This document shows, one piece after another, positions 8,983 through 41,756 of a stretch of 64,000 nucleotides of DNA; position 1 is the stretch's first letter; every line of letters starts with the position of its first letter. The notes under the pieces were generated by a model that made no database searches, was not told where the DNA came from, and saw only the letters and a program-made list of their open reading frames with translations. Source of the DNA: Cyclobacteriaceae bacterium (GTDB taxonomy: Bacteria; Bacteroidota; Bacteroidia; Cytophagales; Cyclobacteriaceae); the NCBI GenBank assembly GCA_016786585.1, contig JAEUUI010000024.1:1-64000 (forward strand), read 5' to 3'. The position numbers were made by a program, and so were the translations under genes.

Positions 8983-11379
8983 TTAATTTACTTTAACTCC
9001 CAGGTTCTCACCCAACAGTCTGAATTGCTTGATCCAGTCTTTTTTGCTGCTGAGTGCTTCGATATCTTCTTCGCGGGAGATTTCGAAGTATAAGTTCTGA
9101 CTTTTATACAGAATCGGTTCAAGTCTGAATTCCTTTAACAACGGAAAGACCCGGTTGAGACGTTCGATACGCTTTGTATTGCTCCGCTCTGCGCTGATGC
9201 GCTTAAGTTCCTTGAAGATGCTCTCTCCTGCCATACGCGAAATCTTGCCGGGGTCTTCAATTTTCAGGTCCCACTTCAGAAGCTCGTGCATGACGCGTTC
9301 CATTTCCTTGATGTTGATCTTCTCTCCGCTGAAACAGTTTTGAAGATCGGCATTCAGGATGTATTCAAACGAGGTGATGTATGCTTTTGGTGTCGGGATA
9401 TCGTTGTTGGCCAACGCGTTAACCAACGGATAGTCGTGGTTATAAACCCTGCGCAACGATTCTTCCAGTTCGCGCATGCTCTGCTGCGTGATCATATCAA
9501 GAACTTTGCGCTTTTCATCCTTAAACAACTGCCATAGCGTGTAATTCACCGGACCGAAATAGGTTTGCATTAGTCCGATCACATCTCCCAGCCTTCCCTC
9601 TTCAAACGCAGTTAGAATACGCATCTGCATGCTAGCAAACTTATCCGGTTCCATATCAAGCGAGATGTTACCCATAATGTTATGCTTACCCATGTGCATC
9701 ACGGCAAACGTAAAGCGTTTTTCCGAGCGCGTTACATTAGACTTTACCTTTGTTATTCCCAACGCCAGTTTCTGCTCGCCCGCTTCCCTGCGAACAAAGA
9801 ATTCATTGGTAGCGGAATAGTTAAATAACGGAGAGTTTTCAGGATCCTCTTCAAACAATGATGCTACCGCATAGTGCATTCCTACGCGCGCCAGGTTCGT
9901 CTTCGAGGGAACAACATACTTCTGGTAAATATTCGCTCCGTTCTCCAGTGCAGGAATATTGCTTGGAGCTGCCTCAAGTCGTTTTACGAATTCATCTTCC
10001 AGGTCTGCACCACCCGACTGGCTGATCAACTGGATCGCGCGACATGCATATTGCATGATTTGCGTTGTTTCAATTCCGGAAATTTCATCGAAGAACCAAC
10101 CACAGCTGGTATACATCAACAATGCATTTCGCTGCATCTCCATTAACCGGAGAACACGGTTCTGCTCAACATCCTTTGAACAATGATCCCGCAGAAACCT
10201 GCGAACCGTATCATCGTCACGTCTCAAAATTACGTTGATATACTCATTACGAGCAGCCCACGGATCACGTAAAATCTGCGATGCTTCGCGCTCATATACT
10301 TCATTTAATTGATCACGAAGCCAGTCGAGTGAATCCCGGAGTGGTTTACGCCACTTCTGGTTCCAGCCTTCCCGCCCCCCACTGTTACAGCCGCAGTCGT
10401 TACGCCAGCGCTCCACACCATGCACACAACTCCATGAACTGTTTTCATGGATCTGAATCTCGTATTCAACTTTTACTTTCGAAATGAATTCAGCATAGTT
10501 GGTTATGTTGGCATGTTGCTGCTGGTCAATGTAATCCAGGCAAAACGCCAGCGCCATATCACCATGCTTATGATGATGACCATAAGTTTCACCGTCCGTT
10601 GCAATGTGAACAAGTTGTGTTTCCTGCGAATGCGAATCGAACGAATTAAGCAATGCATGCGCAAATTTCTGACCATCATTTAACAAACCGTTAAATGCAA
10701 CGCCTTGCGCGATATCGCCATTGTAAAAGAATAGAACAATTGATTTGCCGGAGGGCAGTTTGCAAACATAAGGCCTGCGTGTATCTACACCGCTGTCGCG
10801 AAGCTCATGCCAGTGTTCATCATCAACCCTTCTGAACGCTTTCGCTTGCCGCGGAGCAAGCACGGTAAACTTGATCTCATGCTCAGCCAGTAATTCGAGC
10901 GACTCGGTATCCACCGCACTTTCAGCAAGCCACATGCCTTCCGGTTTGCGCTTGAAACGGTATTCAAAATCCCGGATGCCCCAAACGATCTGCGTAATTT
11001 TGTCGTGGCGGTTCGCCAGCGGCATGATGATGTGATTGTATACCTGCGCCATGGCTGAACCATGACCCGAAAAAAGAGTAACACTCTGACGATCAGCCTC
11101 CAAAATCGCCTCGTAGGTTTCCTGATCGTAGCTTTCCATCCACGATAATAATGTCGGCCCAAAGTTGAAACTGATGCGCGAGTAGTTGTTGATGATGTCT
11201 TTAATGACACCATGTTCCAGGATCCGTGAGGCAGAATTCGGAGCGTAACATTCTGCAGAAATGCGCTCATTCCAATCGTGATAAGGATGGGCTGAATCCT
11301 GAACTTCAATTGCCTCAAGCCAGGCGTTCTCACGGGGCGGTTGATAGAAATGCCCGTGTATGCAGATGTACTTTTCCAA
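8983..11379 (-). CDS. Glycoside hydrolase family 57 protein with DUF3536
   Basis: GH57 enzymes are retaining alpha-glucan hydrolases, branching enzymes or glucanotransferases. This 798-residue protein begins directly with the GH57 barrel (IHGHFYQPPREN). It contains the nucleophile motif GMWLAESAVD and the acid-motif region ATDGETYGHHH, so the catalytic residues look intact. The C-terminal half matches the DUF3536 layout of helical and beta segments. There is no signal peptide, so it should be cytoplasmic. It is the last gene of the amylase-GlgE-TreS/Mak-GlgB operon, 21 bp after glgB. This suggests a role in trimming or rearranging the GlgE/GlgB glucan (inference). The exact activity is not predictable. 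Confidence 0.88.
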   Translation of the reverse strand: MEKYICIHGHFYQPPRENAWLEAIEVQDSAHPYHDWNERISAECYAPNSASRILEHGVIKDIINNYSRISFNFGPTLLSWMESYDQETYEAILEADRQSVTLFSGHGSAMAQVYNHIIMPLANRHDKITQIVWGIRDFEYRFKRKPEGMWLAESAVDTESLELLAEHEIKFTVLAPRQAKAFRRVDDEHWHELRDSGVDTRRPYVCKLPSGKSIVLFFYNGDIAQGVAFNGLLNDGQKFAHALLNSFDSHSQETQLVHIATDGETYGHHHKHGDMALAFCLDYIDQQQHANITNYAEFISKVKVEYEIQIHENSSWSCVHGVERWRNDCGCNSGGREGWNQKWRKPLRDSLDWLRDQLNEVYEREASQILRDPWAARNEYINVILRRDDDTVRRFLRDHCSKDVEQNRVLRLMEMQRNALLMYTSCGWFFDEISGIETTQIMQYACRAIQLISQSGGADLEDEFVKRLEAAPSNIPALENGANIYQKYVVPSKTNLARVGMHYAVASLFEEDPENSPLFNYSATNEFFVRREAGEQKLALGITKVKSNVTRSEKRFTFAVMHMGKHNIMGNISLDMEPDKFASMQMRILTAFEEGRLGDVIGLMQTYFGPVNYTLWQLFKDEKRKVLDMITQQSMRELEESLRRVYNHDYPLVNALANNDIPTPKAYITSFEYILNADLQNCFSGEKINIKEMERVMHELLKWDLKIEDPGKISRMAGESIFKELKRISAERSNTKRIERLNRVFPLLKEFRLEPILYKSQNLYFEISREEDIEALSSKKDWIKQFRLLGENLGVKVN

Positions 11380-11400: not shown

Positions 11401-13368
11401 TTAAGAACCAGCCTCTAATTCAAATTCATTGTCTTCTTTATACAATTTAAGAACTGTCATCCCTAACGGTGGTAAGGTTATTGATACAGAATAGTCCTGC
11501 TGATGATACTTAATCGGTGATGTTACCAAATCGCCAATGTTAAGAACTCCGCTTCCACCGTATTTGAGGTTATCGGTGTTAAAAACTTCGCGCCACTTTC
11601 CGCGCACCGGAACCCCGATGCGGTAATGCTGACGTGCTTCCGGAGTAAAGTTGCAGACTACAATCAATAAGTCTTCCTTCTTGTCGGATTTACGCTGGTA
11701 CGCGATCACACTATTGCCGCTGTCGGAATAATCAATCCACTGGAATCCACGCTGATCGAACGAATAATGATAAAGTGCAGGTTCGGATTTATAGTGAACA
11801 TTAAGCTCCTGAATAAACGTTTTAATTCCGGCATGCGGAGCGTATTGAAGCAAATGCCAGTCAAGACTTTTATCATGACTCCATTCACCCGACTGCCCGA
11901 TCTCACCTCCCATGAACATTAATTTCGTTCCGGGATGGGTATACATATAGCCAAACAGTAATCTCAGGTTGGCAAACCGCTGCCATTCGTCACCCGGCAT
12001 GCGGCCGAGCAATGATCCCTTTCCGTGTACTACTTCATCGTGCGACAGCGGAAGCATAAAGTTTTCGGTGAAGGCATACATCACACTGAATGTGATCTCA
12101 TTCTGGTGATACTTCCGGTGAACAGGTTCCTTCTTAAAGTAATGCAATGTATCGTGCATCCAACCCATCATCCATTTCTGGCCAAAGCCGAGACCTCCTA
12201 AATACGTTGGCTTCGAAACACCCGGCCATGCCGTTGATTCTTCCGCGATCGTTACGGCATCCGGAAAATTCGCGTAAACTGTTTCGTTGAATTCTTTCAG
12301 GAAACTGATTGCTTCCAGGTTTTCATTTCCACCAAACTGGTTCGGAATCCACTCGCCTGCCTTTCTTGAATAATCGAGGTACAGCATACTGGCTACTGCA
12401 TCAACGCGCAATCCATCAATGTGATAGCGTTCTAACCAAAACAGTGCATTGCTGATCAGAAATGAGCGTACTTCATTACGGCCGTAGTTGAAGATGTAAC
12501 TTTTCCAGTCGGGATGAAAGCCCTTGCGGGGATCGGCATGTTCGTACAGATAGGTTCCGTCAAACTTATAGATACCATGTTCATCGCCCGGATAGTGCGA
12601 TGGCACCCAGTCGAGGATTACACCGATATTATTTTGGTGGAGTGTATCGACCAGCGTCATAAATTCTTCGGGCGTCCCGAAGCGACTGGTAGGCGCGAAA
12701 TACCCAGTGATCTGATATCCCCATGATCCAAAAAACGGATGCTCCATCACGGGAAGAAACTCCACGTGTGTGTAATTCATCTCCTTCAGATAGCTCACCA
12801 GTTCTTCCGCCAGTTCAAGGTACGAGAGTGACCGGTTTCCGTCTTCAATTTTTCTACGCCACGACCCGATATGAACCTCGTACACCGAGTACGGTTTGGG
12901 CATGTCGGCCATCAGCTTCCGGTTGTCAAGCCATTTCTTATCCTTCCATTTGTACTCTGCATTCCATACAACGGAAGCTGTCTTGGGTGCAACTTCCGCG
13001 AATGCGGCAAACGGATCGGCCTTTTCTAAATACTCGCCGGTATTCGAATGAATGGCATACTTGTAGACTTCACCTTTTTGCAGGCCCGGAACGAATATTT
13101 CCCAGATACCAGACTCATCCCAGCGTGGATGCATCCGCGTTTGCGTGTCGTTCCAACCGTTAAAGTTCCCAATAACTGAAACAGACTTTGCATTGGGTGC
13201 CCATACTGCGAAGTAAACACCCTTTTTGTTGCCGAAGGATGTGAGGTGTGCACCAAGCTTTTCATAGAGCTTGAAATGCTTACCGCTTCTGAACAAATGA
13301 ATGTCATAGTCGGTGAGCAGGCTTTGACTTTCGTCAGAATTACTTTTTGCTGATGTCTTCTTCGCCAT
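11401..13368 (-). CDS. glgB: 1,4-alpha-glucan branching enzyme (GH13)
   Basis: GlgB cuts alpha-1,4 chains and re-attaches them as alpha-1,6 branches. The 655-residue product carries an N-terminal CBM48 (about 35-125; GVYFAVWAPNAKSVSV, FNGWN) and the GH13 barrel with all catalytic motifs: GLRVDAV (nucleophile Asp323), IAEEST (acid/base Glu) and LSHDEVVHGKGSL. A C-terminal all-beta domain follows. It sits 18 bp downstream of treS-mak in the GlgE-type operon, where it would branch the linear chains made by GlgE. No glgA or glgC is present in the window, so this copy is tied to the maltose-1-phosphate route by context. Confidence 0.97.
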   Translation of the reverse strand: MAKKTSAKSNSDESQSLLTDYDIHLFRSGKHFKLYEKLGAHLTSFGNKKGVYFAVWAPNAKSVSVIGNFNGWNDTQTRMHPRWDESGIWEIFVPGLQKGEVYKYAIHSNTGEYLEKADPFAAFAEVAPKTASVVWNAEYKWKDKKWLDNRKLMADMPKPYSVYEVHIGSWRRKIEDGNRSLSYLELAEELVSYLKEMNYTHVEFLPVMEHPFFGSWGYQITGYFAPTSRFGTPEEFMTLVDTLHQNNIGVILDWVPSHYPGDEHGIYKFDGTYLYEHADPRKGFHPDWKSYIFNYGRNEVRSFLISNALFWLERYHIDGLRVDAVASMLYLDYSRKAGEWIPNQFGGNENLEAISFLKEFNETVYANFPDAVTIAEESTAWPGVSKPTYLGGLGFGQKWMMGWMHDTLHYFKKEPVHRKYHQNEITFSVMYAFTENFMLPLSHDEVVHGKGSLLGRMPGDEWQRFANLRLLFGYMYTHPGTKLMFMGGEIGQSGEWSHDKSLDWHLLQYAPHAGIKTFIQELNVHYKSEPALYHYSFDQRGFQWIDYSDSGNSVIAYQRKSDKKEDLLIVVCNFTPEARQHYRIGVPVRGKWREVFNTDNLKYGGSGVLNIGDLVTSPIKYHQQDYSVSITLPPLGMTVLKLYKEDNEFELEAGS

Positions 13369-13386: not shown

Positions 13387-16300
13387 TTATGATTTCTTCT
13401 TTTTCTTATCGCTTTGCTCCTTCTCCTGCAAATAGCGACCCATATGATACAGGATGCCCCGTAACGGAATCACGGCCCAATCCGGGCGACCGTTGAGTTC
13501 ATATCCCAATTCGTAGATCGATTTCTCAATCAGGAAAATGCGGATGAGCAAATCATCTTCCGCGGGCAGGTTTCGCCCCATACCCAATCGCTCCATGTAT
13601 GCGCCCAGGTAGAAACGGCTCACGTAATGCTGCCATTGTTCCGCCCATGCTTCAAGGAATTCCATGTCGCGGTCGCGATAGTTTTCATTAAGCAGAATTT
13701 TACCGAACGCTGCATAATGGAACGAACGCATCATACCGGCAACATCCTTGAACTGGCTCTTTTTCAATCGCCTTTCATTGAATGAGAATCCCGGCTCCCC
13801 TTCAAAATCGATAATCACGAAATCCTTTCCTGTGAACAAGACCTGACCAAGGTGATAGTCGCCATGGATACGGGTTTTTACTGCATTGATTTTTATCTGG
13901 TAGATTTCGCTGAAGCATTCCAGCACCTGAGGCTCCATCTCCAGAACGCGTTTTGCCAGCACCTTGCTTGACTCATCAAGTTTTGGAAGCGAACTTTTCA
14001 ACAAATTAAACCTGTCGCGTACGAGCTTTCGGAAAGAAGAGTACAATGAACGCTGATAGTTAGGTGTAAACGGTTCAGGTGCAAATGCCGGTGACGAAGA
14101 ATCGGATGCCAGCGCTAAATGCATTTCAGCCGTACGCTGACCGAGTCGAACCACGCGCTCGTAAAATCCACGACCGATAAACTCCTGGATAATTTCAGGG
14201 GCCTCTTCGAAATGAATCGATGGTGTATTAACCAGCTTAGGAAGCTTTTCCTTTTTTGCCTTCAGGATAACGCGCTCAAAGAACCGGCCGACTGAATCAG
14301 TCGACATCACCCATGAGTCGCCCTGGTTCTCGACTTTTTCCTGGAGCAATCCAAAAACAATGGTCTGTCCTTCGTTGTCTTTGTACTCCACACTTCCCGC
14401 ATACCGTGGGGAATTGGTAAAGTTTGTGTGCTCCGAAAGGAATCTAACAAGTTCAAGATCCGGATTGATTTCCTTCTCAATCTTCCGGTAAAACTTAAAG
14501 AAATACAGGTCGTTATAAATAATTGAAGTATTGCTTTGTTCCGCCTTCAGAATCTTCGACTCAACCTTATTGTTCGGAATCCTGATCTTGTTGAACACAC
14601 TCGAGTTAAACTGCAGCACCCCGCCATCATCATCTTCGAGCTCGACCTTTTTATCCATGCTTTGCAGCAGAAAGTCACGGAAAATTCGGTCATAGCTGCT
14701 GTCGAAAATAAACCCGCTCTTGCCCTGAATCTCTGCGCGGCAAATCACGCTCTGTGCGGTGTACTCCGCGCGATCAAGAATGTAATCCGACAAGATAAAC
14801 GTCATCGGAAGGAAGTACAACTCCGGCAATCGTTGAACGTAGTGAACTTCGATTAACGACAGGTAATGTGTACCGCCATCAATTTTAAGCGGAATAACTT
14901 TATGCAGCGCAATCTTATTGATCACTTTGGCCTTACCGCCAAACCACCGGCACTTCTTCATGAACACCGGAAGAATCTTCCGTTCGAACGTGCGCTGCTC
15001 GTTGTAATTATTGAACAACTTCTCCCACGAAACATCCGTCTTTAAAACCGGAAGCTCGGTGGTACTATCCTTTTTGTCTTTCTGTTCGGCTTTGTCGATC
15101 TGGAACCAGAAATAGCCATAAGGCCCAACGGTAATCGAATACTGGCCCTCACCAACATTGATGAACCGGTTCTGACTGAATACTTCAGTTACCTCACAGT
15201 TTTTAAATTCGGAAAGATTGAGTGTCGTTGCCTGTGAAAATTGCGACAGGTTTGCAACAACGATGATGCGCTGCTTCTCGTCCGACCGCAAAAAGCAAAG
15301 CACTTTGTTATTGTCGGTATCGATAAACTTCATCTCTCCCCTTCCGAATACCTGTAACCGCTTGCGCATTGCTATTACGTTTCGCATCCAGTACATGAGT
15401 GAAGATGGACTTTCGTCCTGCGTGGCTACGTTAACAGATTCAAACCGATAAACCGGGTCGGTAATTACGGGCAGGTAAAGCTTCTGCGGATTAGCCGTGG
15501 AGAACCCAGCGTTGAGGTTCATGTTCCATTGCATGGGAGTACGAACTCCGTGACGATCGCCCAGGTAAATGTTGTCGCCCATTCCGATCTCATCGCCATA
15601 ATAAATAACAGGCGTGCCCGGAAGCGAGAACAGCAATGTATACAACAATTCAATTTTCCTTCGGTCGTTACCGAGCATCGGGGCAAGTCGTTTGCGGATA
15701 CCGGTATTAAACTTGGTCATCGCATCATCGGCATAAGCCTTGAAGAGATAATCTTTCTCTTCTTCGGTAACCATCTCAAGTCCAAGTTCATCGTGATTAC
15801 GAAGGAACAGCGCCCATTGATTACCTTCCGGTGTCTCGGGTGTTTGTTCAATGATATCAATGATCGGATAACTGTCTTCCGTACGCAAGCCAAGGAATAG
15901 CCGTGGCATGAGCGGGTAGTTGAAGTTCATGTGACATTCCTTGCCATCTCCGAAATACGCAGCAGCATCTTCCGGCCAAAGGTTCGCTTCCGCCAACAAC
16001 ACAACGTTCTTATAATGACGATCTACGTGTGTTCTGATCTTTCGCAGGAAGGCATGCGTCTGCGGCAAGTTCTCGCAGTTTGTACCTTCTTCTTCAAACA
16101 GGAAGGGAACAGATGACAATCTGAATCCATCCACCCCCAGTTTACACCAGAAGTCGATGATTTTGATCACTTCCATCTGTACTTCCGGGTTCTCATAGTT
16201 CAATTCAGGCTCGTGACGGTAAAACCGGTGCCAGTAATATGATTTCGCCTCGGTGTCCCAACTCCAGTTACTGGATTCTTCGCTTTGAATGATTACGCGT

Positions 16301-16737
16301 GCATCTTTGTATTTATCTGGCGTATCGTTCCAAACATAAAATTCCCGAAAGCGCGACCCGGGTTTAGCTTTGCGGGCACGCTGAAACCAGGCATGCTGAT
16401 CGGATGTGTGATTAAGTAAAAGCTCGGTAATCACTTTAATGCCACGGCTGTGTGCATCTTTAATAAACGCTTTGAAATCTGCCAGCGTGCCGAAATCCGG
16501 ATGAACATCGCAGTGATCGGTAACATCGTAGCCATCATCTTTTAACGGTGACGGATAGAATGGCAAAAGCCAGATGGTGTTGATACCCAGATCTTCCAGG
16601 TAATCAAGCTTTTGAATCAATCCCTGAAAATCACCCGTACCATCGCCATTACTGTCGTAAAATGCACGCACCGACAATTCGTAAATAACGGCATCTTTAT
16701 ACCACAGCGGGTCGGTATGTTTGGTTTGCTTGCTCAT
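13387..16737 (-). CDS. treS: TreS-maltokinase fusion with altered TreS nucleophile
   Basis: The 1116-residue protein joins an N-terminal GH13 trehalose synthase-like domain (about 1-550) to a C-terminal maltokinase (about 570-1105). The kinase looks intact: HGDYHLGQVL catalytic loop and IDFEGEP metal site. It should make maltose 1-phosphate for GlgE, whose gene ends 2 bp upstream. The TreS half keeps ELLLNHTSDQHAWFQ, the acid/base region LLAEANLWPED and FLRNHDELGLEM. However, the nucleophile Asp expected in GFRLDA is Ser208 (codon TCA at 16114-16116, minus strand), followed by another Ser. Trehalose-maltose isomerisation by the standard double-displacement mechanism should therefore be lost or strongly reduced. 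Fusions of this length are common, and the substitution is the odd part. Confidence 0.95.
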   Translation of the reverse strand: MSKQTKHTDPLWYKDAVIYELSVRAFYDSNGDGTGDFQGLIQKLDYLEDLGINTIWLLPFYPSPLKDDGYDVTDHCDVHPDFGTLADFKAFIKDAHSRGIKVITELLLNHTSDQHAWFQRARKAKPGSRFREFYVWNDTPDKYKDARVIIQSEESSNWSWDTEAKSYYWHRFYRHEPELNYENPEVQMEVIKIIDFWCKLGVDGFRLSSVPFLFEEEGTNCENLPQTHAFLRKIRTHVDRHYKNVVLLAEANLWPEDAAAYFGDGKECHMNFNYPLMPRLFLGLRTEDSYPIIDIIEQTPETPEGNQWALFLRNHDELGLEMVTEEEKDYLFKAYADDAMTKFNTGIRKRLAPMLGNDRRKIELLYTLLFSLPGTPVIYYGDEIGMGDNIYLGDRHGVRTPMQWNMNLNAGFSTANPQKLYLPVITDPVYRFESVNVATQDESPSSLMYWMRNVIAMRKRLQVFGRGEMKFIDTDNNKVLCFLRSDEKQRIIVVANLSQFSQATTLNLSEFKNCEVTEVFSQNRFINVGEGQYSITVGPYGYFWFQIDKAEQKDKKDSTTELPVLKTDVSWEKLFNNYNEQRTFERKILPVFMKKCRWFGGKAKVINKIALHKVIPLKIDGGTHYLSLIEVHYVQRLPELYFLPMTFILSDYILDRAEYTAQSVICRAEIQGKSGFIFDSSYDRIFRDFLLQSMDKKVELEDDDGGVLQFNSSVFNKIRIPNNKVESKILKAEQSNTSIIYNDLYFFKFYRKIEKEINPDLELVRFLSEHTNFTNSPRYAGSVEYKDNEGQTIVFGLLQEKVENQGDSWVMSTDSVGRFFERVILKAKKEKLPKLVNTPSIHFEEAPEIIQEFIGRGFYERVVRLGQRTAEMHLALASDSSSPAFAPEPFTPNYQRSLYSSFRKLVRDRFNLLKSSLPKLDESSKVLAKRVLEMEPQVLECFSEIYQIKINAVKTRIHGDYHLGQVLFTGKDFVIIDFEGEPGFSFNERRLKKSQFKDVAGMMRSFHYAAFGKILLNENYRDRDMEFLEAWAEQWQHYVSRFYLGAYMERLGMGRNLPAEDDLLIRIFLIEKSIYELGYELNGRPDWAVIPLRGILYHMGRYLQEKEQSDKKKKKS

Positions 16738-18708: not shown

Positions 18709-20256
18709 CTATGGTGTGAGAATAACAGAAGCATACGCTGGCAGCGTGAGCTCATTTTCTTTTAATGAAACACGATTTTCTGTCGCGAACCCAATGGCCC
18801 GAAACGCATTCAAATCAGTCGGCAACGTCAGCTTAACTGTACCCGAAGTGATGTTGTGGAAAACAATGAACGTTTCGTTGTCAAACGAACGTTTCAATCC
18901 GATAACGTTCGGAGGTAAATCGGCTATTGGTTCAATCGATCCGAACGTAAGCGGCTTGCTCGAATTGCGGTAGGAAATCAGTCGCTTGTAATGGTTGAGC
19001 AATGATTGTTTGTCGTCACCCTGTGCTTTTGCATCAGCCACAGAATCCAAAACGTTGAATCTTGGCGTCATCCATCGCGTAGTAATTTTTTCATCGCCCC
19101 ACAGGAACGGCTCCCGGATAAATTCATCGGGCTTAGTGCCGCGCATGCCTAACTCTTCGCCATAGTAGACGTAAGGTGTGCCGGGCAACGTGAGCAAAAT
19201 CGAAGCCGCCACCCTCGCCTTACCCGGATCGTTACCTAACTGACTCATAATTCGACTTTGATCGTGATTCGTCAGAATCGGTGCATCCAGAAACTCAGGG
19301 TTTGAAGATTTAAAGAAGTCGATTTGTTCAGCATAGTTTGCAATCAGTTGCAGTGAATCAACTCCTGAATTAAGCGTTATGATCACCCGGCTTCCAAGAT
19401 CAAAATTGAAGAGTGCGGGCAAGCCTTTCGCAAACGGAGAAACCTCGTTCCGGTCGGTCGAGTAAACCTCTCCTACCATGTAAATGTCAGGCTTGATCTT
19501 GACGAGCTGCTCGCGGTACCAAATCCAGAATTGATGGCAGTCGTATGCGCGGTCGCTCGGATATAAATGTCGTGCAGCATCAAAGCGAAATCCGTCAACG
19601 TTCATCTCCTGAATCCAGAATCGCGCAACGTCAACCATTTCATCGCGTACTTTTTGATTGTCGAAATTGAGGTCAGGCATGTGACTGGAGAAAAATCCGT
19701 AATAATGTTCTGCTGTAGAATCATTATTCACTTCATGCCATTGACGGATGTTGTCCGAATCAACTGTGACTTTCTTTTTTGAGATCTGATCACGGATAGA
19801 ATCTTTCTTTGCCCAAATAAAGTAATCGCGGTAGGGAGAGTTCTTATCACTTGAAGCGCTTATAAACCAGGGATGATTAGTGGCCGTGTGATTCAACACC
19901 AGGTCGATGATCACCCGGATGCCACGTTTATGCGCTTCTGCAGTAAATGCTTTAAAATCACCTAGCGTGCCGTAATCGGGGTGGATGCTCTTGTAATCAG
20001 ACACATCGTATTTATGGTACGATGGCGAAGGCATAATCGGCATAAGCCAGATGCCATTAACATCCAACGACTCAACATAGTCGAGCTTACTGGTTAATCC
20101 TTTCAGATCGCCTTTGCCATCACCGTTACCATCGGCAAATGCAAGCACAAAGATTTCATACTTCACCCCTTGCGGCCACGCATTGTTAACAGCAGGCTTT
20201 TGTCCACATGAAAAGCAGATCAAAGCGAGAGCCGATAGCATAGCGTATCTTTTCAT
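18709..20256 (-). CDS. Alpha-amylase family lipoprotein (GH13)
   Basis: This 515-residue GH13 enzyme starts with a lipoprotein signal (ALALICFSCG, lipobox Cys at about residue 17), so it is expected to be anchored in a membrane and to face the periplasm or cell surface. The barrel has all catalytic residues: VLNHTATNHPWF, GFRFDAARH (nucleophile), MVGEVYSTD (acid/base) and LTNHDQSRI. A C-terminal beta domain follows. Its start codon overlaps the upstream amylase stop by 4 bp (ATGA), showing translational coupling. The likely role is cutting maltodextrins to maltose or glucose. The exact subfamily cannot be fixed by eye. Confidence 0.93.
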   Translation of the reverse strand: MKRYAMLSALALICFSCGQKPAVNNAWPQGVKYEIFVLAFADGNGDGKGDLKGLTSKLDYVESLDVNGIWLMPIMPSPSYHKYDVSDYKSIHPDYGTLGDFKAFTAEAHKRGIRVIIDLVLNHTATNHPWFISASSDKNSPYRDYFIWAKKDSIRDQISKKKVTVDSDNIRQWHEVNNDSTAEHYYGFFSSHMPDLNFDNQKVRDEMVDVARFWIQEMNVDGFRFDAARHLYPSDRAYDCHQFWIWYREQLVKIKPDIYMVGEVYSTDRNEVSPFAKGLPALFNFDLGSRVIITLNSGVDSLQLIANYAEQIDFFKSSNPEFLDAPILTNHDQSRIMSQLGNDPGKARVAASILLTLPGTPYVYYGEELGMRGTKPDEFIREPFLWGDEKITTRWMTPRFNVLDSVADAKAQGDDKQSLLNHYKRLISYRNSSKPLTFGSIEPIADLPPNVIGLKRSFDNETFIVFHNITSGTVKLTLPTDLNAFRAIGFATENRVSLKENELTLPAYASVILTP

Positions 20257-22028
20257 TCTTCGATCTTAAAGATATAAGCACTATAAGCCGGCAGGTTCAT
20301 CGAAAGTGTACGGGCTGTTAATTTCTGATCGGAGTTTTTCCACAATAGGTCGCGAAGCTGATAGGTTTTATCGGCTTTCAGCGAAAGGGATGTGGCAAGC
20401 TCAGCTGGTATCGTAACACTAACGGGCTTTACTTTTGCCCCGAAGTTTGAAACGATCAATAGTTTTTCTGACCCTGAGTTTCTGACGAACGCGTGAATAT
20501 CATCAGACACGGTAAGATCAGCATAAGCGCCAGAGACAATCGCAGGATTTGTTTGCGCGAGATTAAGCAGCGTTCCGTAGAACTGACGTAAACTCTTTTG
20601 CGGTTCGCTCAGCAGCCCGCCATCGAACGCTCCTCCGTTCATCCACTTTTGATGTTCCGGTACGCCCCAATAATCAAAAATGGTTGTGCGACCATCTTTA
20701 CCGCCAAAACCTTCAGCACCGGCACCCGGCTCGCCTACTTCCTGACCGAAATAAATCATTACCGGTCCCTGGTCGATGGTAGCGCTCACAACCATGGCTG
20801 GAACAATTTTCCAGCCACTGCCGGCAAAATCAGGTGAGGCTATCCGCTGCTCGTCATGGTTCTCAAGAAAATGCAGCATGTTTCCATTGATGCCTTCCAG
20901 GCTTTTTTGAATTACGTCAATGTCTTTCGCACTTCGCTTATTGTTAATTAATCCGCGGAGCGTATCGTAGAGCTGAACCTTGTCGTACAGGTAGTCGAAC
21001 TTACCTGTCTTGATGTAATTGTGATACTGGGCAGGGTTGTAAATTTCTGCCACAAATATTATTTCCGGATTAACCGCCTTCACTTGCGGAATTGCCCAGT
21101 TCCAGAATTCAACCGGCACCATTTCGGCCATATCGCACCGAAAGCCATCCACATGTTTGTTTGCCCAGAAGACGAGAATGTCTTTCATCTTGATCCACGT
21201 ATCGGGAATCGGCTCGAAGTAAGGCTTGTTATTATCCTGAATATCAACCCCGTAATTGAGCTTAACGGTTTCAAACCATTCATTCACTCCCGGACTTGCC
21301 GTAAACTGATTGTTGCCGGTAACCTTTGCCGGAGTTTCATTGAACTTTCCATCAGCAGCAGGGTAAAGTGTATCGGGCGGAATAGATTTAAAATCCTTTG
21401 GCACAACAAACGACTCTCCCGGCAGGTAATAGAAATTGTTGTTAGCGGAAAATTTCACCGTCTTATCATCGGTTTCTCCGAGGTCTTTTACACCCGCTGG
21501 TTTCGTGTCAGATTTATAGGCGCGCGCTACGTGGTTCGGAACAAAATCGATCAACACTTTCAATCCATTAGCATGCGTCCGTTCCACCAGTTGCTCGAAC
21601 TCTTTCATACGATCAGGCACATTAACGGCCAGATCAGGATTAACATCGTAGTAATCTTTAATCGCATAAGGCGAGCCCGCCCTTCCTTTCACGACATCTG
21701 CATCATCAAGCGCGATTCCATACCGGGAATAATCCGTTAATACTGCGTGTTCAATTATGCCTGTGAACCAAACATGCGTTACACCGAGGTCCTTAATTGA
21801 CCCCAAAGCAACTCCGTTAATGTCGTTGAATTTCCCAACACCATTTTCAGCAAGGGTTCCGTAAGGCTTATTAACAGCAGTTTTATTCCCGAACAGCCGG
21901 GTCATCATCTGGTATACAACCATTTTAGTCGGCTTATTTTCCATAGCAGGCACGGGCGGGATTTTTTCAACTTGCCGGGCACATCCACACAGGAGAATAC
22001 ACAGCAAAACGGGGGCAATTCTGACCAT
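20253..22028 (-). CDS. Alpha-amylase family lipoprotein (GH13)
   Basis: This is the second exported GH13 amylase and the first gene of the six-gene alpha-glucan operon. I choose the start at 22028 (MVRIAPVLLC), which gives a compact lipoprotein signal ending in LLCGC; an in-frame ATG at 22055 is also possible. The product has about 591 residues. The catalytic motifs FVPNHVARAY, GFRCDMAEM (nucleophile), FVAEIYNPA (acid/base) and FLENHDEQR are all present. An insertion of about 80 residues after the first motif carries Tyr, Asn and Gly-rich segments, as in cyclomaltodextrinase-like or SusA/G-like periplasmic enzymes. A LacI-type dyad lies just upstream (22085-22098). Confidence 0.93.
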   Translation of the reverse strand: MVRIAPVLLCILLCGCARQVEKIPPVPAMENKPTKMVVYQMMTRLFGNKTAVNKPYGTLAENGVGKFNDINGVALGSIKDLGVTHVWFTGIIEHAVLTDYSRYGIALDDADVVKGRAGSPYAIKDYYDVNPDLAVNVPDRMKEFEQLVERTHANGLKVLIDFVPNHVARAYKSDTKPAGVKDLGETDDKTVKFSANNNFYYLPGESFVVPKDFKSIPPDTLYPAADGKFNETPAKVTGNNQFTASPGVNEWFETVKLNYGVDIQDNNKPYFEPIPDTWIKMKDILVFWANKHVDGFRCDMAEMVPVEFWNWAIPQVKAVNPEIIFVAEIYNPAQYHNYIKTGKFDYLYDKVQLYDTLRGLINNKRSAKDIDVIQKSLEGINGNMLHFLENHDEQRIASPDFAGSGWKIVPAMVVSATIDQGPVMIYFGQEVGEPGAGAEGFGGKDGRTTIFDYWGVPEHQKWMNGGAFDGGLLSEPQKSLRQFYGTLLNLAQTNPAIVSGAYADLTVSDDIHAFVRNSGSEKLLIVSNFGAKVKPVSVTIPAELATSLSLKADKTYQLRDLLWKNSDQKLTARTLSMNLPAYSAYIFKIEE

Positions 22029-22084
22029 CGTTAAAGATATACCAATGGCAGACAAGGGTCGGTAAAACCGAAGGATAAAATTTA

Positions 22085-35893: not shown

Positions 35894-38203
35894 TCAGGCG
35901 AGAACTTTTTCAAATGTTTTATTATGACTAAGCGCTACCGCCTCGTTGTTTATTCTGATCTCAAACGGTTCACCGGAAACCAAAGTCGTTTCGATGCGCT
36001 GATTGCTGACTTTTACTTTTATCACGCGTCCGCGGAACTCGATTCTGAACGAATATGACTTCCACTTCTTAGGAATAAACGGAGTAAAGTGAAGCGTATC
36101 ATTTTTGATACGCATTCCGCCAAAACCTTTGATCACCGAAAGCCACGTTCCGGCCATACTGGTGATATGACAGCCGTCTTCTGTATCGTTGTTATAATCA
36201 TCCAGGTCAAGACGCGAGGTACGCAAATACATTTCGTATGCTTTCTCTTCATACCCAAGCTTCGAAGCCAGGATCACGTGCACGCAAGGCGACAAGGAAG
36301 ATTCATGAACCGTCATCGGCTCATAAAAATCGAAATTGCGCTTGATGGTTTCCGTATCAAAGTCATCTTCAAAGAAATACAAACCCTGCAACACATCAGC
36401 CTGCTTAATGAAGCACGAGCGCAGTATGCGGTCCCACGACCACTTTTGATTCAGCGGGCGGTCTTCCTTTGGAAGCTGAGACACCGTCATGATGTCCTTA
36501 TCCAGGAAACCATCCTGCTGCAGAATCACCCCACGGGTCTTATCTTCCGGCAGGTACATGTTGTCGGCAATTTTACTCCACAACGAAGTCTCATCATCTT
36601 TCAGATTAAGATTACCAATAATGCGGCTATAATCTGAAACATTTGACGATTTAACTTTATTGAGCGACTCGAGCGTGTAGCGCAATGTCCAGCGGGCGAT
36701 GTAGTTCGTGTACCAGTTGTTGTTAACGTTGTTCTCGTACTCATTCGGGCCGGTTACACCCAGCATCACGTATTTGTTTTTTTCTTTCGAGAAGTTTACG
36801 CGTTGTGCCCAGAACCTTGAGATTCCAACGAGTACATCAAGGCCGTGACTTGCCAGGTAGCTTTCGTCACCAGTATACCGGATGTAATCGTAAATCGCGT
36901 ATGCAATAGCACCATTACGATGGATTTCTTCAAACGTGATCTCCCACTCGTTATGACACTCCTCACCGTTCATGGTCACCATCGGGTACAATGCTGCTCC
37001 GTTCTTAAAGCCCAGCTTGCCCGCATTCTCAATCGCGCGCTGCAAGTGCTTATGACGATAGATCAACAGATTCTTCGCAACCTGCTGCTCTGCAGTTCCC
37101 AGATAAAACGGGAGGCAATAAGCTTCAGTATCCCAATATGTACTTCCACCATATTTCTCCCCTGTGAATCCTTTCGGACCGATATTTAATCTTTCATCTT
37201 CTCCGGTATAGGTTTGGGTGAGTTGAAAAATATTGAAACGAATTCCCTGTTGTGCGGCAATGTCACCTTCAATGGTGATGTCACATTCGTCCCACTTGTG
37301 CTTCCACACAGCGGCATGCCCTTCAAATAACGTATCGAAACCCTTTTCAGCTGCTTTATTAAGAACATCCTGACAGTGAGCGACCAGTTTATCTTTTAAG
37401 TGATTCTCCGAAGAAAGTATCGCGCCATACTTGTAGATCACGATCTCCTTACCCTGGCTTAGTTCAATCTGCACGATGTTGCCGGCATACTTATCGCGTT
37501 CTTCATAGTTGATACGCTTTGAAGCCTCCGCCCCTTCCTGCAAAATTGAATACCGCATCCCTGTAGCAACGTGGAATTTTGTCTTCTTCGTTTGCGCTAC
37601 AACAATAGCTTGATGATCCTCTGCCTTTTTATAAACTTCTTCCCAGAATTTCTCATCGTAGTTCGAATCCTTGTTAACGACATCCGCATCGACAGCAATC
37701 GAAATAGTTGCCTTTGCCGAGAAGTTCACCGGAGTAAGTGCATAGCGAATTGCTCCGATCTCACCGTTCGCCATGCTGCAGAAACGCTTTGCTTCTACAT
37801 TAACCTGCTTGCCGTCCGGGAGGATTGCAGAAAACTTACGGGTTAGTAAACCCGTTTTCATATCCAGCGTTCTTACAAAATTGATCACTTTGCATTTTGC
37901 CAGATCAAGCTTGTGATTATCAATGGAAATGTGAATTCCAATCCAGCTTGGAGCATTCAGAACCTTTGCAAAATATTCGGGATAACCATTCTTCCACCAA
38001 CCCACGCGCGTCTTGTCCGGATAATAAACTCCCGCTACATAGCTTCCCGGAAGTGTGTCGCCACTGTATTCCTCTTCGAAGTTTGCACGCTGGCCCATCC
38101 GGCCATTCCCGATGCTGAATATGCTTTCGGAAATTTTGTTGTAGTGCGCGTCAAATCCTTCTTCAATTATCTGCCATTCGTGGTGTTTTAAGTACTCCTT
38201 CAT
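35894..38203 (-). CDS. GH65 phosphorylase, probably maltose phosphorylase
   Basis: GH65 inverting phosphorylases split alpha-glucosides with phosphate to give beta-glucose 1-phosphate. The 769-residue product has the family length, an N-terminal beta-sandwich, the (alpha/alpha)6 barrel with the catalytic-acid segment GEECHNEWEITFEEIHRNG, the sugar-binding YWDTEAYCLPFY, and phosphate-site residues near QLPKEDRPLNQKW. The following C-terminal beta domains are complete. It lies 21 bp after pgmB, whose enzyme uses beta-G1P, and inside a maltose/starch locus. Maltose is therefore the most likely substrate, although kojibiose or trehalose phosphorylases look similar. Confidence 0.93.
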   Translation of the reverse strand: MKEYLKHHEWQIIEEGFDAHYNKISESIFSIGNGRMGQRANFEEEYSGDTLPGSYVAGVYYPDKTRVGWWKNGYPEYFAKVLNAPSWIGIHISIDNHKLDLAKCKVINFVRTLDMKTGLLTRKFSAILPDGKQVNVEAKRFCSMANGEIGAIRYALTPVNFSAKATISIAVDADVVNKDSNYDEKFWEEVYKKAEDHQAIVVAQTKKTKFHVATGMRYSILQEGAEASKRINYEERDKYAGNIVQIELSQGKEIVIYKYGAILSSENHLKDKLVAHCQDVLNKAAEKGFDTLFEGHAAVWKHKWDECDITIEGDIAAQQGIRFNIFQLTQTYTGEDERLNIGPKGFTGEKYGGSTYWDTEAYCLPFYLGTAEQQVAKNLLIYRHKHLQRAIENAGKLGFKNGAALYPMVTMNGEECHNEWEITFEEIHRNGAIAYAIYDYIRYTGDESYLASHGLDVLVGISRFWAQRVNFSKEKNKYVMLGVTGPNEYENNVNNNWYTNYIARWTLRYTLESLNKVKSSNVSDYSRIIGNLNLKDDETSLWSKIADNMYLPEDKTRGVILQQDGFLDKDIMTVSQLPKEDRPLNQKWSWDRILRSCFIKQADVLQGLYFFEDDFDTETIKRNFDFYEPMTVHESSLSPCVHVILASKLGYEEKAYEMYLRTSRLDLDDYNNDTEDGCHITSMAGTWLSVIKGFGGMRIKNDTLHFTPFIPKKWKSYSFRIEFRGRVIKVKVSNQRIETTLVSGEPFEIRINNEAVALSHNKTFEKVLA

Positions 38204-38224
38204 ATCGGTGAGGTAAAATCAAGG

Positions 38225-38869
38225 TTATAGTTTTTGCAGATCGTGGTAGTTAAAATTCTGGATGGAATCGACTACACGATTTGCACGTTTTAGTTTAGTA
38301 AAATTACCAACTCCAACGCATTTCATACCGGCAGCCAGCGCTGCCTCAACTCCTGCTTCTGCATCTTCAAAGACTAAACAATCGGCCGGATCAATTCCAA
38401 GTCTTTTTGCAGCCAATAAAAAAATCTCCGGGTCAGGTTTGCTGTGTACGATCATAGTACCATCCACCACAGTTTCAAATTCATGTTGAATCCCCAGTAT
38501 CTCAATAATCGTTTTAGCGTTCTTACTGCTCGATGCGAGGCCGATTTTAATATTGTCTTTGCGTAACCGGCTGAACAATTCACGGACACCCGGAAATAAC
38601 TCATCCGGATTCATATTATGCACATATTCCGTAAACCAGCCATTCTTTCGATCGGCTAAAAGTTCTTTTTTCTGATTCTCAAGTGAAACATTGGCGTGCT
38701 GCAGCACGATCTCCAACGACTTCATCCGGCTAACGCCCTTGAGCTCTTCGTTTATTTCTTCGGTAAGTTCGTAGTCAAACTCTTTTGCCAGGCGCTTCCA
38801 CGCAAGGAAATGGTAATGAGCTGTATCAACTAAAACTCCGTCAAGGTCGAAAATACAAGCTTTAATCAA
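38225..38869 (-). CDS. pgmB: Beta-phosphoglucomutase
   Basis: This HAD-superfamily mutase converts beta-glucose 1-phosphate to glucose 6-phosphate. The 214-residue product has the nucleophile motif FDLDGVLVDTAHYHFLAWK, the cap-domain segment with LKGVSRMKSLEIVL typical of beta-PGM, LASSSKNAKTI (motif II), and FEDAEAGVEAALAAGM (motif IV). It lies 11 bp after the T9SS amylase gene and 21 bp before the GH65 gene. The phosphorylase-mutase pair is a classic unit that turns maltose and phosphate into glucose plus G6P. Confidence 0.96.
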   Translation of the reverse strand: MIKACIFDLDGVLVDTAHYHFLAWKRLAKEFDYELTEEINEELKGVSRMKSLEIVLQHANVSLENQKKELLADRKNGWFTEYVHNMNPDELFPGVRELFSRLRKDNIKIGLASSSKNAKTIIEILGIQHEFETVVDGTMIVHSKPDPEIFLLAAKRLGIDPADCLVFEDAEAGVEAALAAGMKCVGVGNFTKLKRANRVVDSIQNFNYHDLQKL

Positions 38870-38880
38870 CGCGAAATCTT

Positions 38881-41712
38881 TTAATCGTTTTGTTTAATCA
38901 CTTTAACTTTCACTTTCCCACTTCGGGTCTCAACATCTGCGATGTAAAGTCCCGGGGCAAGTTGACTGATGTCCCAGCTTTCGTCTGAAATACGAACCGG
39001 TTTGATTCTAACACCCTGCATGGTCGTCAGGCTTACTGAGAGCACGGGTGACTCAGAAGCAATTGTCAATGTGCGCTTTGCCGGATTGGGATAAATTGAA
39101 AGCGACACCTCATTTTGTTCCACCCCTGTGATGATCTGCGGACTTCCGATCGCAACATCCGTGTACAGTTTGTATTCGCCCGGTTGTAATGATACTCCCA
39201 GCGAAGCGCCAGAAACTGTTATCTCGGCCCCCTTCCCGTAGTAATCATACCAGGTTCCCGTGTGCGGGAAATTAACCGTAGTCGTTTTACTCGCAACGTC
39301 AAAATTAACGACAACAACGGCATTCATCTCATCTGTATTTGCAGGCGTTGCAGTATATGGGCTATTTTTTAAAACAACCTGCTTTTCAAGTGAAGTCGAG
39401 CCAACCGAAAGCGTTGCCGTGCCGGAGGTAAACACATCGTATGAATTTCTAATCCGTAATAAATCAGCGATGTGAGATTTTAAGCCGGCCCGTTTATCAT
39501 TTTGCAAGTAATCCCAGACCACAGGTTTCGGATAGGTGCGACAACCATCGCTGATGGTTCCGTCTTCGCAATAGTTAATACTGTAATCATAGCCGAGTTC
39601 GCCGAATTGCCACAACATCTTCGGGCCAGGAATGGTATAGAAAATCGTTGCAGCAGCGCGTGACCGTTTGAGTGCGGTTGCAATATCTTTTACCGAATAC
39701 GTACCCGATATGTTTCCGAAGGAAAGGTTTTTATACATCATCCGCTCTTCATCGTGGCTCTCCATGTAACTCACCAGCCGAGGAGCCGACCATGTTCGGT
39801 TACCGTAATACACACCACTGAAATCTGAATCGGTAGCATAACCCATGGCACTTTGCAGATACGCATTATTGAGGTTACCCCAAAGCATCATACCCTTCCC
39901 TTCCCCTGAGCGGTACTCCGCTAATTCTTTTTCCTCTGAGTTAACAGCAAGGTGCTCCAGAATTACATACGCGTCCGGGAAGTTAGCCCAGATTTTATCT
40001 GCCATACGTTTAAGAATTGCAATGCGCGATGCATCGTAAGCAGACCACGCACCAACGTTGTTCGGATTGTTTACCTGGGTGAATCCCTTTGATAAATCAA
40101 ACCGGTAACCATCAATTTTATACTCGTGCAGCCAATAGTAATTGATTGTATCCAAATATTTCTTGGTGTATGCGCTCTCATGATTCATGTCGTAAAAAAC
40201 ACTGAACGGATGAGTAGCATCTACATTGAAAAACTTATTGGTAGGGTTTGGCTTAAAGGTGTTGTAGTTAAAATCGAGTAGCAAATAGGGATTCGGAGTG
40301 TCCTGATGATTCATAGCAATATCAAAGATCACCGCGATACCGTTCTGATGACACACATCAATAAATTCCTTTAGCTTATTTTTCGTACCATAAGCTTTGT
40401 CGGGCGCGAACATAAACTGTGGATTATAACCCCAGCTGTTGTTGCCGCCGAACTCCATGATGGGCATTAACTCAATAGCATTAATACCGAGATTCTTAAA
40501 ATAGCTGATTGTGTCGATGAGTGACTGATAGTTATTCTCACCGTCTTCAAAAAAATCGCGCACAAGCAGCTCATACACAACTAACTTTTCTTTAGCGGGT
40601 TTGGTGAAATTTGTGACTTGCCAATTGTAAGGAGTTTGTCCTGTTTGAAACACACTTAAGCGATTCCAGTACCATTGATTTCTGAGCGCTACTGTTGGAA
40701 ATTCTTTTAAGTTGGGATAGGTATTGTCAGGGATGTACTGATCATCCGGGTCGAGAATTTTATCAGCATACGGATCAGCAATCCAAATCGTTTCATCAAC
40801 TAAATACTGAAAGGCATATTCTGTTCCGGACGTCAAACCGGAAAGTTCAATCCAAAAATACTCACCGTCACGCTTCATCAGATTTTCCGGGAGAATATCC
40901 CAATCACTGAAGTCACCGCGTACATAGGCAGATGTTTTACCTGGCGCCAGTACACACAATGTAACTTTTGAGTTGTCACCCGGATGATAGTTAATACCAG
41001 ATATAATTCCCGCCGGACGAGCCTGCACAGGACTGTTCGCAGAAATGATGTATTGAAATGAGACTTCATCGCTGCCAGATGGTGATGTGGCTGTCAAGCG
41101 AACAGAAGCAGCACCGGACGTTTCAGTAACGGTGTGATTATGAGAATAACTTGTTACCCCGGATTGCGTGTGAACCGATACATTATTAACAAACAACTCA
41201 AAGGTTGAAGCCACAGGTGTGGAAGCCTGAATGCTAAGTTGCTGCCCGTTATCAACAAACACGGGACGAACAGATGGTTGGATCAGTGTTAGCGCAAAGC
41301 CAAAGTTGGCAATGTAATCCGTTGTTTGCCCCCCACCCCAGTCGGGAGCTTTGAGCAGAATACCCATACTGGTTTTTGAACTGATGTCCTGAACAAAAAA
41401 ATCAGAAGGTTTGAACGTGAGACTGAACGTTGTTACCCCTCCCGCTACGTTTTTGGTAAATTTAGCAGGAGCATCAGCTGCCGTGGCAGGATTGTGATTG
41501 TACTTCGCATCAATGGCTGCTGCATCCGGAATCCAAACCCACGCGTAGGCTTCTGATAAGTTTGCCAATGAAGTTCCTGTAACGTTGTAGGTTACTGTTA
41601 TCGTAGTACTACTTTGAAACAACGCAGGCGTTATCGTGGGGTTGAGCGTAACCTTTTGAGCAAAGCAAAAACCCGGTAAACTTAAGACAATCAATAGTAA
41701 AAATCTCCTCAT
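38881..41712 (-). CDS. Secreted alpha-amylase (GH13) with T9SS sorting domain
   Basis: This exported amylase has about 943 residues with the start at 41712 (MRRFLLLIVLSLPGFCFAQ, a clear signal peptide). N-terminal beta-sandwich domains (about 20-320) include a CBM48-like part (APGKTSAYVRGDFSDWD). The GH13 barrel has FDIAMNHQDTP, GYRFDLSKG (nucleophile), VILEHLAVN (acid/base) and MESHDEERM. The last 80 residues are a type A T9SS C-terminal domain (SLSIYPNPAKRTL, LAPGLYIADV), so it is probably released or anchored at the cell surface. It is the fourth gene of the sus operon, after a hairpin, and is the likely first cutter of extracellular starch. Confidence 0.95.
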   Translation of the reverse strand: MRRFLLLIVLSLPGFCFAQKVTLNPTITPALFQSSTTITVTYNVTGTSLANLSEAYAWVWIPDAAAIDAKYNHNPATAADAPAKFTKNVAGGVTTFSLTFKPSDFFVQDISSKTSMGILLKAPDWGGGQTTDYIANFGFALTLIQPSVRPVFVDNGQQLSIQASTPVASTFELFVNNVSVHTQSGVTSYSHNHTVTETSGAASVRLTATSPSGSDEVSFQYIISANSPVQARPAGIISGINYHPGDNSKVTLCVLAPGKTSAYVRGDFSDWDILPENLMKRDGEYFWIELSGLTSGTEYAFQYLVDETIWIADPYADKILDPDDQYIPDNTYPNLKEFPTVALRNQWYWNRLSVFQTGQTPYNWQVTNFTKPAKEKLVVYELLVRDFFEDGENNYQSLIDTISYFKNLGINAIELMPIMEFGGNNSWGYNPQFMFAPDKAYGTKNKLKEFIDVCHQNGIAVIFDIAMNHQDTPNPYLLLDFNYNTFKPNPTNKFFNVDATHPFSVFYDMNHESAYTKKYLDTINYYWLHEYKIDGYRFDLSKGFTQVNNPNNVGAWSAYDASRIAILKRMADKIWANFPDAYVILEHLAVNSEEKELAEYRSGEGKGMMLWGNLNNAYLQSAMGYATDSDFSGVYYGNRTWSAPRLVSYMESHDEERMMYKNLSFGNISGTYSVKDIATALKRSRAAATIFYTIPGPKMLWQFGELGYDYSINYCEDGTISDGCRTYPKPVVWDYLQNDKRAGLKSHIADLLRIRNSYDVFTSGTATLSVGSTSLEKQVVLKNSPYTATPANTDEMNAVVVVNFDVASKTTTVNFPHTGTWYDYYGKGAEITVSGASLGVSLQPGEYKLYTDVAIGSPQIITGVEQNEVSLSIYPNPAKRTLTIASESPVLSVSLTTMQGVRIKPVRISDESWDISQLAPGLYIADVETRSGKVKVKVIKQND

Positions 41713-41756
41713 CACATTCCGGTTAAAATTCAAAAAAAGCATCGATTTGTAAATAA

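Follow-up and report, generated by a model that had tools for sequence, protein, structure and literature searches.

The GlgE route is usually described as leading from trehalose to maltose and from maltose to maltose 1-phosphate. Trehalose synthase (TreS) and maltokinase occur as one fused protein (TreS-Mak, or TreS-Pep2) in Estrella lausannensis, where both halves are reported to be active (PMC7935935), and in Pseudomonas aeruginosa, where a review likewise reports activity of both (PMC11046441). In mycobacteria the two proteins are separate chains, and an active TreS serves as the platform of the maltokinase in the solved TreS:Pep2 complex (5jy7). Binding of TreS is reported to raise the maltokinase rate modestly in M. 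tuberculosis and essentially not in M. smegmatis, and some elements are common to the interface and the ATP site (PMC6509496). An engineered, inactive M. tuberculosis TreS with the nucleophile changed to Ala (TreS-D238A; 8uqv) is reported to bind an analogue of trehalose and to move its loop (PMC11019547). GH13 pseudoenzymes are already known: plant ISA2, the non-catalytic partner of ISA1, has substituted catalytic residues and is described as required for the stability, and possibly the regulation, of a polysaccharide enzyme (PMC4919380).

The protein analyzed here is encoded in a 64,000-nucleotide stretch of a Cyclobacteriaceae genome (the window). It resembles the Estrella and Pseudomonas fusions in domain order, in its operon partners GlgE and GlgB and in its kinase motifs. 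However, the window fusion lacks the TreS nucleophile, and trehalose genes are mostly absent from genomes that have only the class of its close relatives (class A, below). The Ala made by hand in TreS-D238A is the natural state of 24 of the 76 class A sequences, and replacement of the nucleophile is fixed in this natural clade. As in mycobacteria, we propose TreS as a platform for the maltokinase. The likeness to ISA2 is that of a GH13 protein with a substituted catalytic residue, but the partner of ISA2 is an unfused GH13 debranching enzyme, while the window barrel is fused to a kinase. A search of the open literature, with most subscription papers outside it, found neither a nucleophile-less or pseudoenzyme TreS nor a maltokinase in Cytophagales.

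Region II of the fusion protein and its relatives

The 1116-aa open reading frame on the minus strand of the window is a TreS-maltokinase fusion gene (Table 1). Its product exceeds the equivalog threshold set by NCBIfam for maltose alpha-D-glucosyltransferase, and would probably receive the label of an active TreS. A phmmer search with the TreS half matched TreS structures including 5x7u, 3zo9 and 4lxf, and the half is 51-52% identical to the mycobacterial TreS of the TreS:Pep2 complex. The top Foldseek matches of a modest model of the TreS half (pLDDT 65.4) were TreS structures, with TM of about 0.74-0.78, and the full-length AlphaFold model was poor in the barrel (pLDDT below 50 for most of residues 263-451). 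The models confirm the TreS fold only, and neither entered pocket geometry. The rBAT and 4F2hc heavy chains (SLC3) have GH13-like domains that serve another protein, as ancillary subunits of transporters, and rBAT was among the PDB matches of the TreS half in the phmmer search.

Table 1. Positions in the window of the fusion gene, its catalytic and pocket residues, and the genes of its cluster.
Feature	Coordinates	Strand	Basis
treS-mak fusion, 1116 aa	13387..16737	minus	TIGR02456 831 bits (cut-off 678); TIGR02457 439 bits (cut-off 375)
Pseudo-trehalose-synthase half, residues 1-550: GH13 barrel and C-terminal beta domain	15088..16737	minus	PF00128 24-464; PF16657 467-544
Maltokinase half, residues about 576-1116	13390..15012	minus	TIGR02457 566-1096; PF18085 Mak_N_cap 592-683
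His110, region I, 76/76 class A	16408..16410	minus	Alignment
Arg206, region II, 76/76 class A	16120..16122	minus	Alignment
Codon 208, TCA, Ser replacing nucleophile Asp	16114..16116	minus	Translation; alignments to relatives and solved TreS
Codon 209, TCT, Ser replacing Ala; almost constant in the nucleophile-less clade	16111..16113	minus	Alignments
Glu250, acid/base position, 74/76 class A (2 Asp)	15988..15990	minus	Alignment
Asp316, substrate-coordinating Asp (Mtb D350), 76/76 class A	15790..15792	minus	Alignment
Asp960, maltokinase catalytic base (HGD), 76/76 class A	13858..13860	minus	Role as reported in PMC4306142
Gln965, maltokinase Mg ligand, 75/76 class A	13843..13845	minus	Role as reported in PMC4306142
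Asp977, maltokinase Mg ligand (DFE), 76/76 class A	13807..13809	minus	Role as reported in PMC4306142
GH57-DUF3536, candidate 4-alpha-glucanotransferase	8983..11379	minus	PF12055, PF03065; downstream in 20/20 class A neighbourhoods
glgB, branching enzyme	11401..13368	minus	NF003811 978 bits; downstream in 20/20 class A neighbourhoods
glgE, 671 aa	16740..18755	minus	PF11896, PF21702; 2 bases upstream of the fusion gene
GH13 SusG-like protein	18709..20256	minus	PF00128, PF23915; in 5/20 class A neighbourhoods
GH13, 600 aa, lipoprotein-like start, first cluster gene	20253..22055	minus	PF00128; upstream in 20/20 class A neighbourhoods

The initial annotation had read Ser208 in place of the invariant region II Asp and a second Ser in place of the Ala that follows it, and both readings held. 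The minus-strand codons TTG TCA TCT (plus strand 16111-16119, AGA TGA CAA) encode Leu207, Ser208 and Ser209. Region II of the protein is GVDGFRLSSVPF, with GFRLSSVP where active trehalose synthases have GFRLDAVP. In phmmer alignments to solved TreS, of which five were printed, Ser208 pairs with the nucleophile and region II has no gap; the paired residue is Asp in four and Ala in one (the engineered 8uqv). The GFRLDAVPY of M. tuberculosis TreS aligns to the window region II in the same gap-free way, and these alignments leave no different Asp at the nucleophile position. The other features first noted were also found: the frame is open for 1116 residues, the acid/base Glu and the NHDE region are intact (E250, H315, D316), and the maltokinase loop is present (HGDYHLGQ and DFEGEP).

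We compared 126 distinct sequences; each was aligned over 1040 columns or more, and duplicates were removed. Class A comprised the 76 distinct sequences at least 65% identical to the window protein, its own included. Class S comprised 11 sequences at 51-55% identity, from Saprospiraceae, Phaeodactylibacter and related MAGs, and class B, defined by having the Asp, comprised 39 at 48-54%. At site 208 class A had P in 32 sequences, A in 24, S in 15, G in 5 and D in none; site 209 was the more constant mark (S in 64, N in 11, A in 1). Class S had T in 10 and S in 1 at site 208 with S at site 209 throughout, and all class B sequences had D followed by A. No Asp-bearing sequence of the set was more than 55% identical to the window protein. 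Class A fragments outside the count (e.g. L024, L173 and L158) lacked the Asp too, and the orthologue was present, without the Asp, in all 17 genomes of the genus searched (the window's included). The initial annotation asked whether Asp-to-Ser is conserved in a clade: the loss of the Asp is clade-wide, but the Ser alternates with P, A and G in class A.

Class A corresponds to a Chryseolinea/Ohtaekwangia/Chryseotalea group, and its named organisms include Chryseolinea serpens, Chryseolinea lacunae, Ohtaekwangia koreensis, Chryseosolibacter indicus, Chryseosolibacter histidini, Chryseotalea sanaruensis and Pseudochryseolinea flava. Among the genome samples searched, class A (by identity or score) was confined to the window's family; we read region II in the fetched loci, and the other genome-sample matches were placed by identity or score alone. 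Region II reads LAAVP in one genome (L023/L159); the cluster with LAAVP is also the GlgE-less class A cluster (L095, genome G012) and has Asp at the acid/base site.

A sequencing or assembly error, or a misaligned motif, has practically no chance of accounting for the missing Asp. The nearest two relatives (G004 and G009; 97% identical) also read SS, no relative at least 65% identical has the Asp, and the loss is repeated in independent assemblies, named strains among them (L117, L129, L131, L135, L145, L153, L160). This agreement between independent genomes led us to reject sequencing error, and the gap-free printed alignments to TreS structures argue against misalignment.

With sites 208-209 masked, classes A and S formed one clade apart from class B, with support of 100 for the full-length protein (LG+G4) and 99 for the TreS half (mixture model). 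Both trees came from quick searches, the first with 22 and the second with 9 of the 76 class A rows, and the root was placed on sequences from another class of the phylum. On these trees the loss of the nucleophile in classes A and S appears as one old event. Within class A, a quick tree of all 76 sequences required at least 17 changes at site 208; in this tree one long branch of unsure position (L102, genome G060) meets class S. Site 208 is the 24th most variable of the 451 barrel sites in class A. Its codons are all NCN or GGN, and 18 of the 76 are one base away from an Asp codon, with Asp in none. The site behaves like one freed from catalysis. Because at least 17 changes have occurred among P, A, S and G, no single residue replaces the nucleophile, and Ser as the nucleophile was rejected for the same variation.

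The initial annotation had also raised an enzyme that is still active by a changed mechanism, with a relocated or external nucleophile or with a new reaction that uses E250 and D316. In its favor, the sugar pocket is preserved along with E250 and D316, and site 208 always holds a small residue. However, the substitute shifts repeatedly among P, A, S and G in class A and between T and S in class S, so that none of these residues is a conserved nucleophile. A scan found no new invariant carboxylate near region II, and a relocated nucleophile was rejected on this result. D77, D81, E216, D441 and E442 are new carboxylates that reach at least 90% in class A, but none of them is invariant in class A or class S. 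E48 and D358 are new and strictly invariant but lie elsewhere; the modest model places one in a helix and the other in a turn, and does not settle their distance to the pocket. In addition, the acid/base position is Asp in 3 of 87 sequences (two class A, one class S). We consider a changed mechanism improbable.

Conservation of the barrel and of the kinase

Mean identity within class A is 81% for the barrel, 78% for the kinase C-lobe, 67% for the kinase N-cap and 48% for the linker; no other part of the fusion protein is as well conserved as the barrel. Two pairs had unsaturated dS, and their barrel dN/dS is about 0.01 (0.004/0.372 and 0.007/0.504); the other six of eight pairs were left out, with TreS-part dS of about 0.85 or more, or undefined. 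Of the 451 barrel sites, 172 are invariant in class A. The TreS half lacks the nucleophile yet, by these values, is under strong purifying selection. With a catalytic residue lost and the fold so maintained, it would count as a GH13 pseudoenzyme. Neutral decay of a TreS half that is unneeded and still present would agree with the absence of trehalose-making genes from most genomes with class A only. However, barrel identity, the invariant sites and dN/dS (two pairs only) indicate strong purifying selection after the loss; we rejected neutral decay on conservation and dN/dS, and it is very improbable.

In the kinase half, the maltose-site residues K1072, Y1075 and Y1079 (roles as reported in PMC4306142) are present in the window protein and in 74, 73 and 74 of the 76 class A sequences, the exceptions being two gaps at each and one Asn at 1075. 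The kinase sites are intact in all 39 aligned class B sequences too. Judged by its intact motifs, the C-terminal maltokinase should remain active. Clade-wide loss of the Asp, the interchangeable replacements and the intact kinase motifs strongly favor the reading first proposed, a catalytically dead TreS half attached to a live maltokinase.

The opposite state was found among the class S genomes, 7 of 11 of which have a second TreS with intact GFRLDA. Four of these seven second copies are fusions with a degenerate kinase (L228-L231): all four have Lys for the Mg-ligand Gln and an altered P-loop, and three have Asn for the DFE Asp. The corresponding Asp-to-Asn change is reported to abolish M. 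tuberculosis maltokinase (PMC4306142). In the other three (L232-L234) a complete kinase is missing from the open frame, possibly an effect of draft contigs. A degenerate kinase beside intact TreS also occurs in other families (L255-L257). Set against the nucleophile-less class A and S fusions, the degenerate-kinase fusions show that each half has been lost somewhere in this phylum.

The gene cluster and the proposed supply of maltose

The cluster order in the window is GH13-GlgE-TreS-Mak-GlgB-GH57, so that GlgE, maltokinase and GlgB are encoded together, with 2 bases between the GlgE and fusion genes, 18 between the fusion gene and that for GlgB, and 21 between those for GlgB and GH57. A promoter and terminator scan gave signal no greater than chance. 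We read 20 class A neighbourhoods, out of 33 class A genomes. The glgE gene was directly upstream of the fusion gene in 19 of the 20 (the exception is G012). Among the nine class S loci that exceed 10 kb, seven showed no GlgE next to the class S fusion. A scan of 18 class B loci, of which some are short, did not find the gene for the 600-aa GH13 protein, a possible maltose supplier. Elsewhere in the window, at 35894-41742, a GH65 gene (PRK13807 family), a beta-phosphoglucomutase-like gene (read from sequence) and a T9SS-tailed GH13 gene are consecutive, and perhaps form a second maltose-type utilization cluster near the GlgE operon.

We searched 50 genomes for OtsA, TreY, TreS and MalQ. Twenty-three genomes had class A only (3 of them below 90% completeness), 10 had classes A and B, and 17 had class B only. 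Fisher tests on these counts are descriptive only, the genomes being related. TreY was found in 0/23, 10/10 and 17/17 of the three groups, respectively, OtsA in 5/23, 7/10 and 17/17, and GH77 MalQ over its cut-off in 0/23, 9/10 and 17/17. None of the 23 class A-only genomes had a second TreS over the TIGR02456 cut-off, and 18 of them had none of OtsA, TreY and intact TreS. With the nucleophile lost, and OtsA and TreY missing from these 18, a trehalose feed through this operon's TreS does not appear to fit the gene content. The absence of TreY, and for the most part of OtsA, from searched genomes with no other TreS also backs the dead-TreS reading. In a GlgA-family search of the same genomes, the best match in 49 of the 50 was a short GT5-domain frame of about 260-340 aa (G000:C5:445709-446386 in the window's genome).

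Both classes occur in O. koreensis, and the ten genomes with both include that of the window. The second TreS-Mak of the window's genome (L242, G000:C9:208000-226000) is intact in both halves and adjoins, on a separate contig, a 1474-aa TreY-MalQ fusion and a 615-aa TreZ-like protein. In the genomes with both classes the nucleophile-less copy adjoins GlgE in all six loci read (the window, L089, L098, L103, L104, L106), and none of the nine loci of the intact copy that were read (L235-L243; L238 only 6 kb) has GlgE beside it. Among nine other class B loci (L184, L185, L244-L250), GlgE adjoins the intact copy in seven, all except L246 and L247. Two observations count against a trehalose-free reading: OtsA is kept in 5 of the 23 class A-only genomes, and the window's own genome has the intact TreS-Mak and TreY.

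In P. aeruginosa, maltose 1-phosphate is reported to persist in treY and treZ mutants and to be formed from maltohexaose by MalQ with TreS/Pep2 (PMC8084333). MalQ was rejected as the maltose source here on its absence from all 23 class A-only genomes. A Pontibacter GH57-DUF3536 protein of a GlgE-type cluster is reported to act as a 4-alpha-glucanotransferase, with hydrolytic activity too (PMC11206854). A relative occurs in all of the class A neighbourhoods we read, and we propose the GH57 and GH13 proteins of the cluster as putative maltose suppliers. This source is proposed by analogy with the Pontibacter protein; the sequence comparison covered two other Pontibacter (L184 and L185), whose GH57 shares 45-47% identity with that of the window.

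The role of the nucleophile-less barrel

From the comparisons above we infer the loss of TreS catalysis, the kinase activity, the maltose source and the role of the barrel as follows. The TreS half without its GH13 nucleophile would be a conserved pseudoenzyme, in which trehalose isomerization should fail. The C-terminal maltokinase would make maltose 1-phosphate, which the neighboring GlgE and GlgB would turn into glycogen. The kinase would obtain its maltose in a different way; alpha-glucan or starch, processed by the GH57 and GH13 amylases of the cluster, is the most likely origin. The dead barrel would be kept because the kinase needs physical support (docking, stabilization of the N-lobe, oligomerization), and the preserved sugar pocket perhaps still binds a sugar that sets kinase activity. 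We regard it as probable, on gene and sequence evidence, that the GlgE pathway here takes in maltose and not trehalose, and that in it the pseudo-TreS serves to stabilize or regulate a live maltokinase. The G012 cluster without GlgE, and the lack of GlgE beside the fusion in seven of the nine longer class S loci, count against this explanation.

The word scaffold, used in the initial annotation for the TreS half, may be too weak, in that the barrel is conserved beyond the kinase and the rest of the sugar pocket is kept. D68, D71, H110, R206, H315, D316 and R399 are 100% conserved in class A, and E250 97%. Most equivalents of the residues reported to hold the mobile loop of Mtb TreS (Leu352) in its ligand-bound position (PMC11019547) are kept, with M277, P278, L312, L320, Y335 and I347 present in all 76 sequences. 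A sugar-sensing regulator, in which the dead pocket binds maltose, trehalose or a related sugar, the loop moves and the kinase is switched, would make use of these residues, and the nucleophile-to-Ala TreS made in the laboratory is reported to bind ligand and to move that loop (PMC11019547). However, the same residues belong to the barrel core, and the fold alone could explain their retention. The acid/base exceptions given above, the Leu in class A at the equivalent of Mtb M365, and the further changes in class S, which has lost R147 and E321, also weigh against a sensor. Class A has also lost positions, D396 and R408 among them, that vary little or not at all in class B. TreS in the solved TreS:Pep2 complex is described as having the apo shape (PMC11019547), and the complex is reported to have no channel between the sites (PMC6509496). 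We consider the sensor a rather doubtful form of the explanation.

A purely structural scaffold would instead use the barrel as a surface for folding or oligomerization of the kinase, with conservation of the pocket incidental. The mycobacterial complex, in which TreS is reported as the platform of Pep2 and the kinase N-lobe as flexible (PMC6509496), and the conservation of the barrel beyond that of linker and kinase agree with it. In contrast, the active-site residues are invariant while site 208 varies, and a pure scaffold might not need them; the two interface salt-bridge residues of mycobacterial TreS:Pep2 have no confident mapping onto the window protein. This form is tentative, short of an even chance, and somewhat more plausible to us than the sensor. 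A still more specific picture combines a trehalose-independent GlgE pathway, an ancient nucleophile-less TreS acting as a fused sugar sensor that switches the maltokinase, and reciprocal half-dead fusions (kinase-only and isomerase-only) in some Saprospiraceae-type genomes; taken as a whole we think it unlikely.

For annotators the protein is a warning, as it passes an equivalog cut-off despite the missing nucleophile. The pseudo-TreS offers a natural form that is expected to be catalytically inert with its pocket otherwise kept, and it would allow the contribution of TreS to the maltokinase beyond maltose to be tested. For the organisms of this group, the sequences point to a conserved GlgE cluster in which the trehalose step appears to be disabled at its catalytic residue, in host genomes that, where they have no other TreS, mostly lack both of the trehalose-making routes tested, OtsA and TreY.
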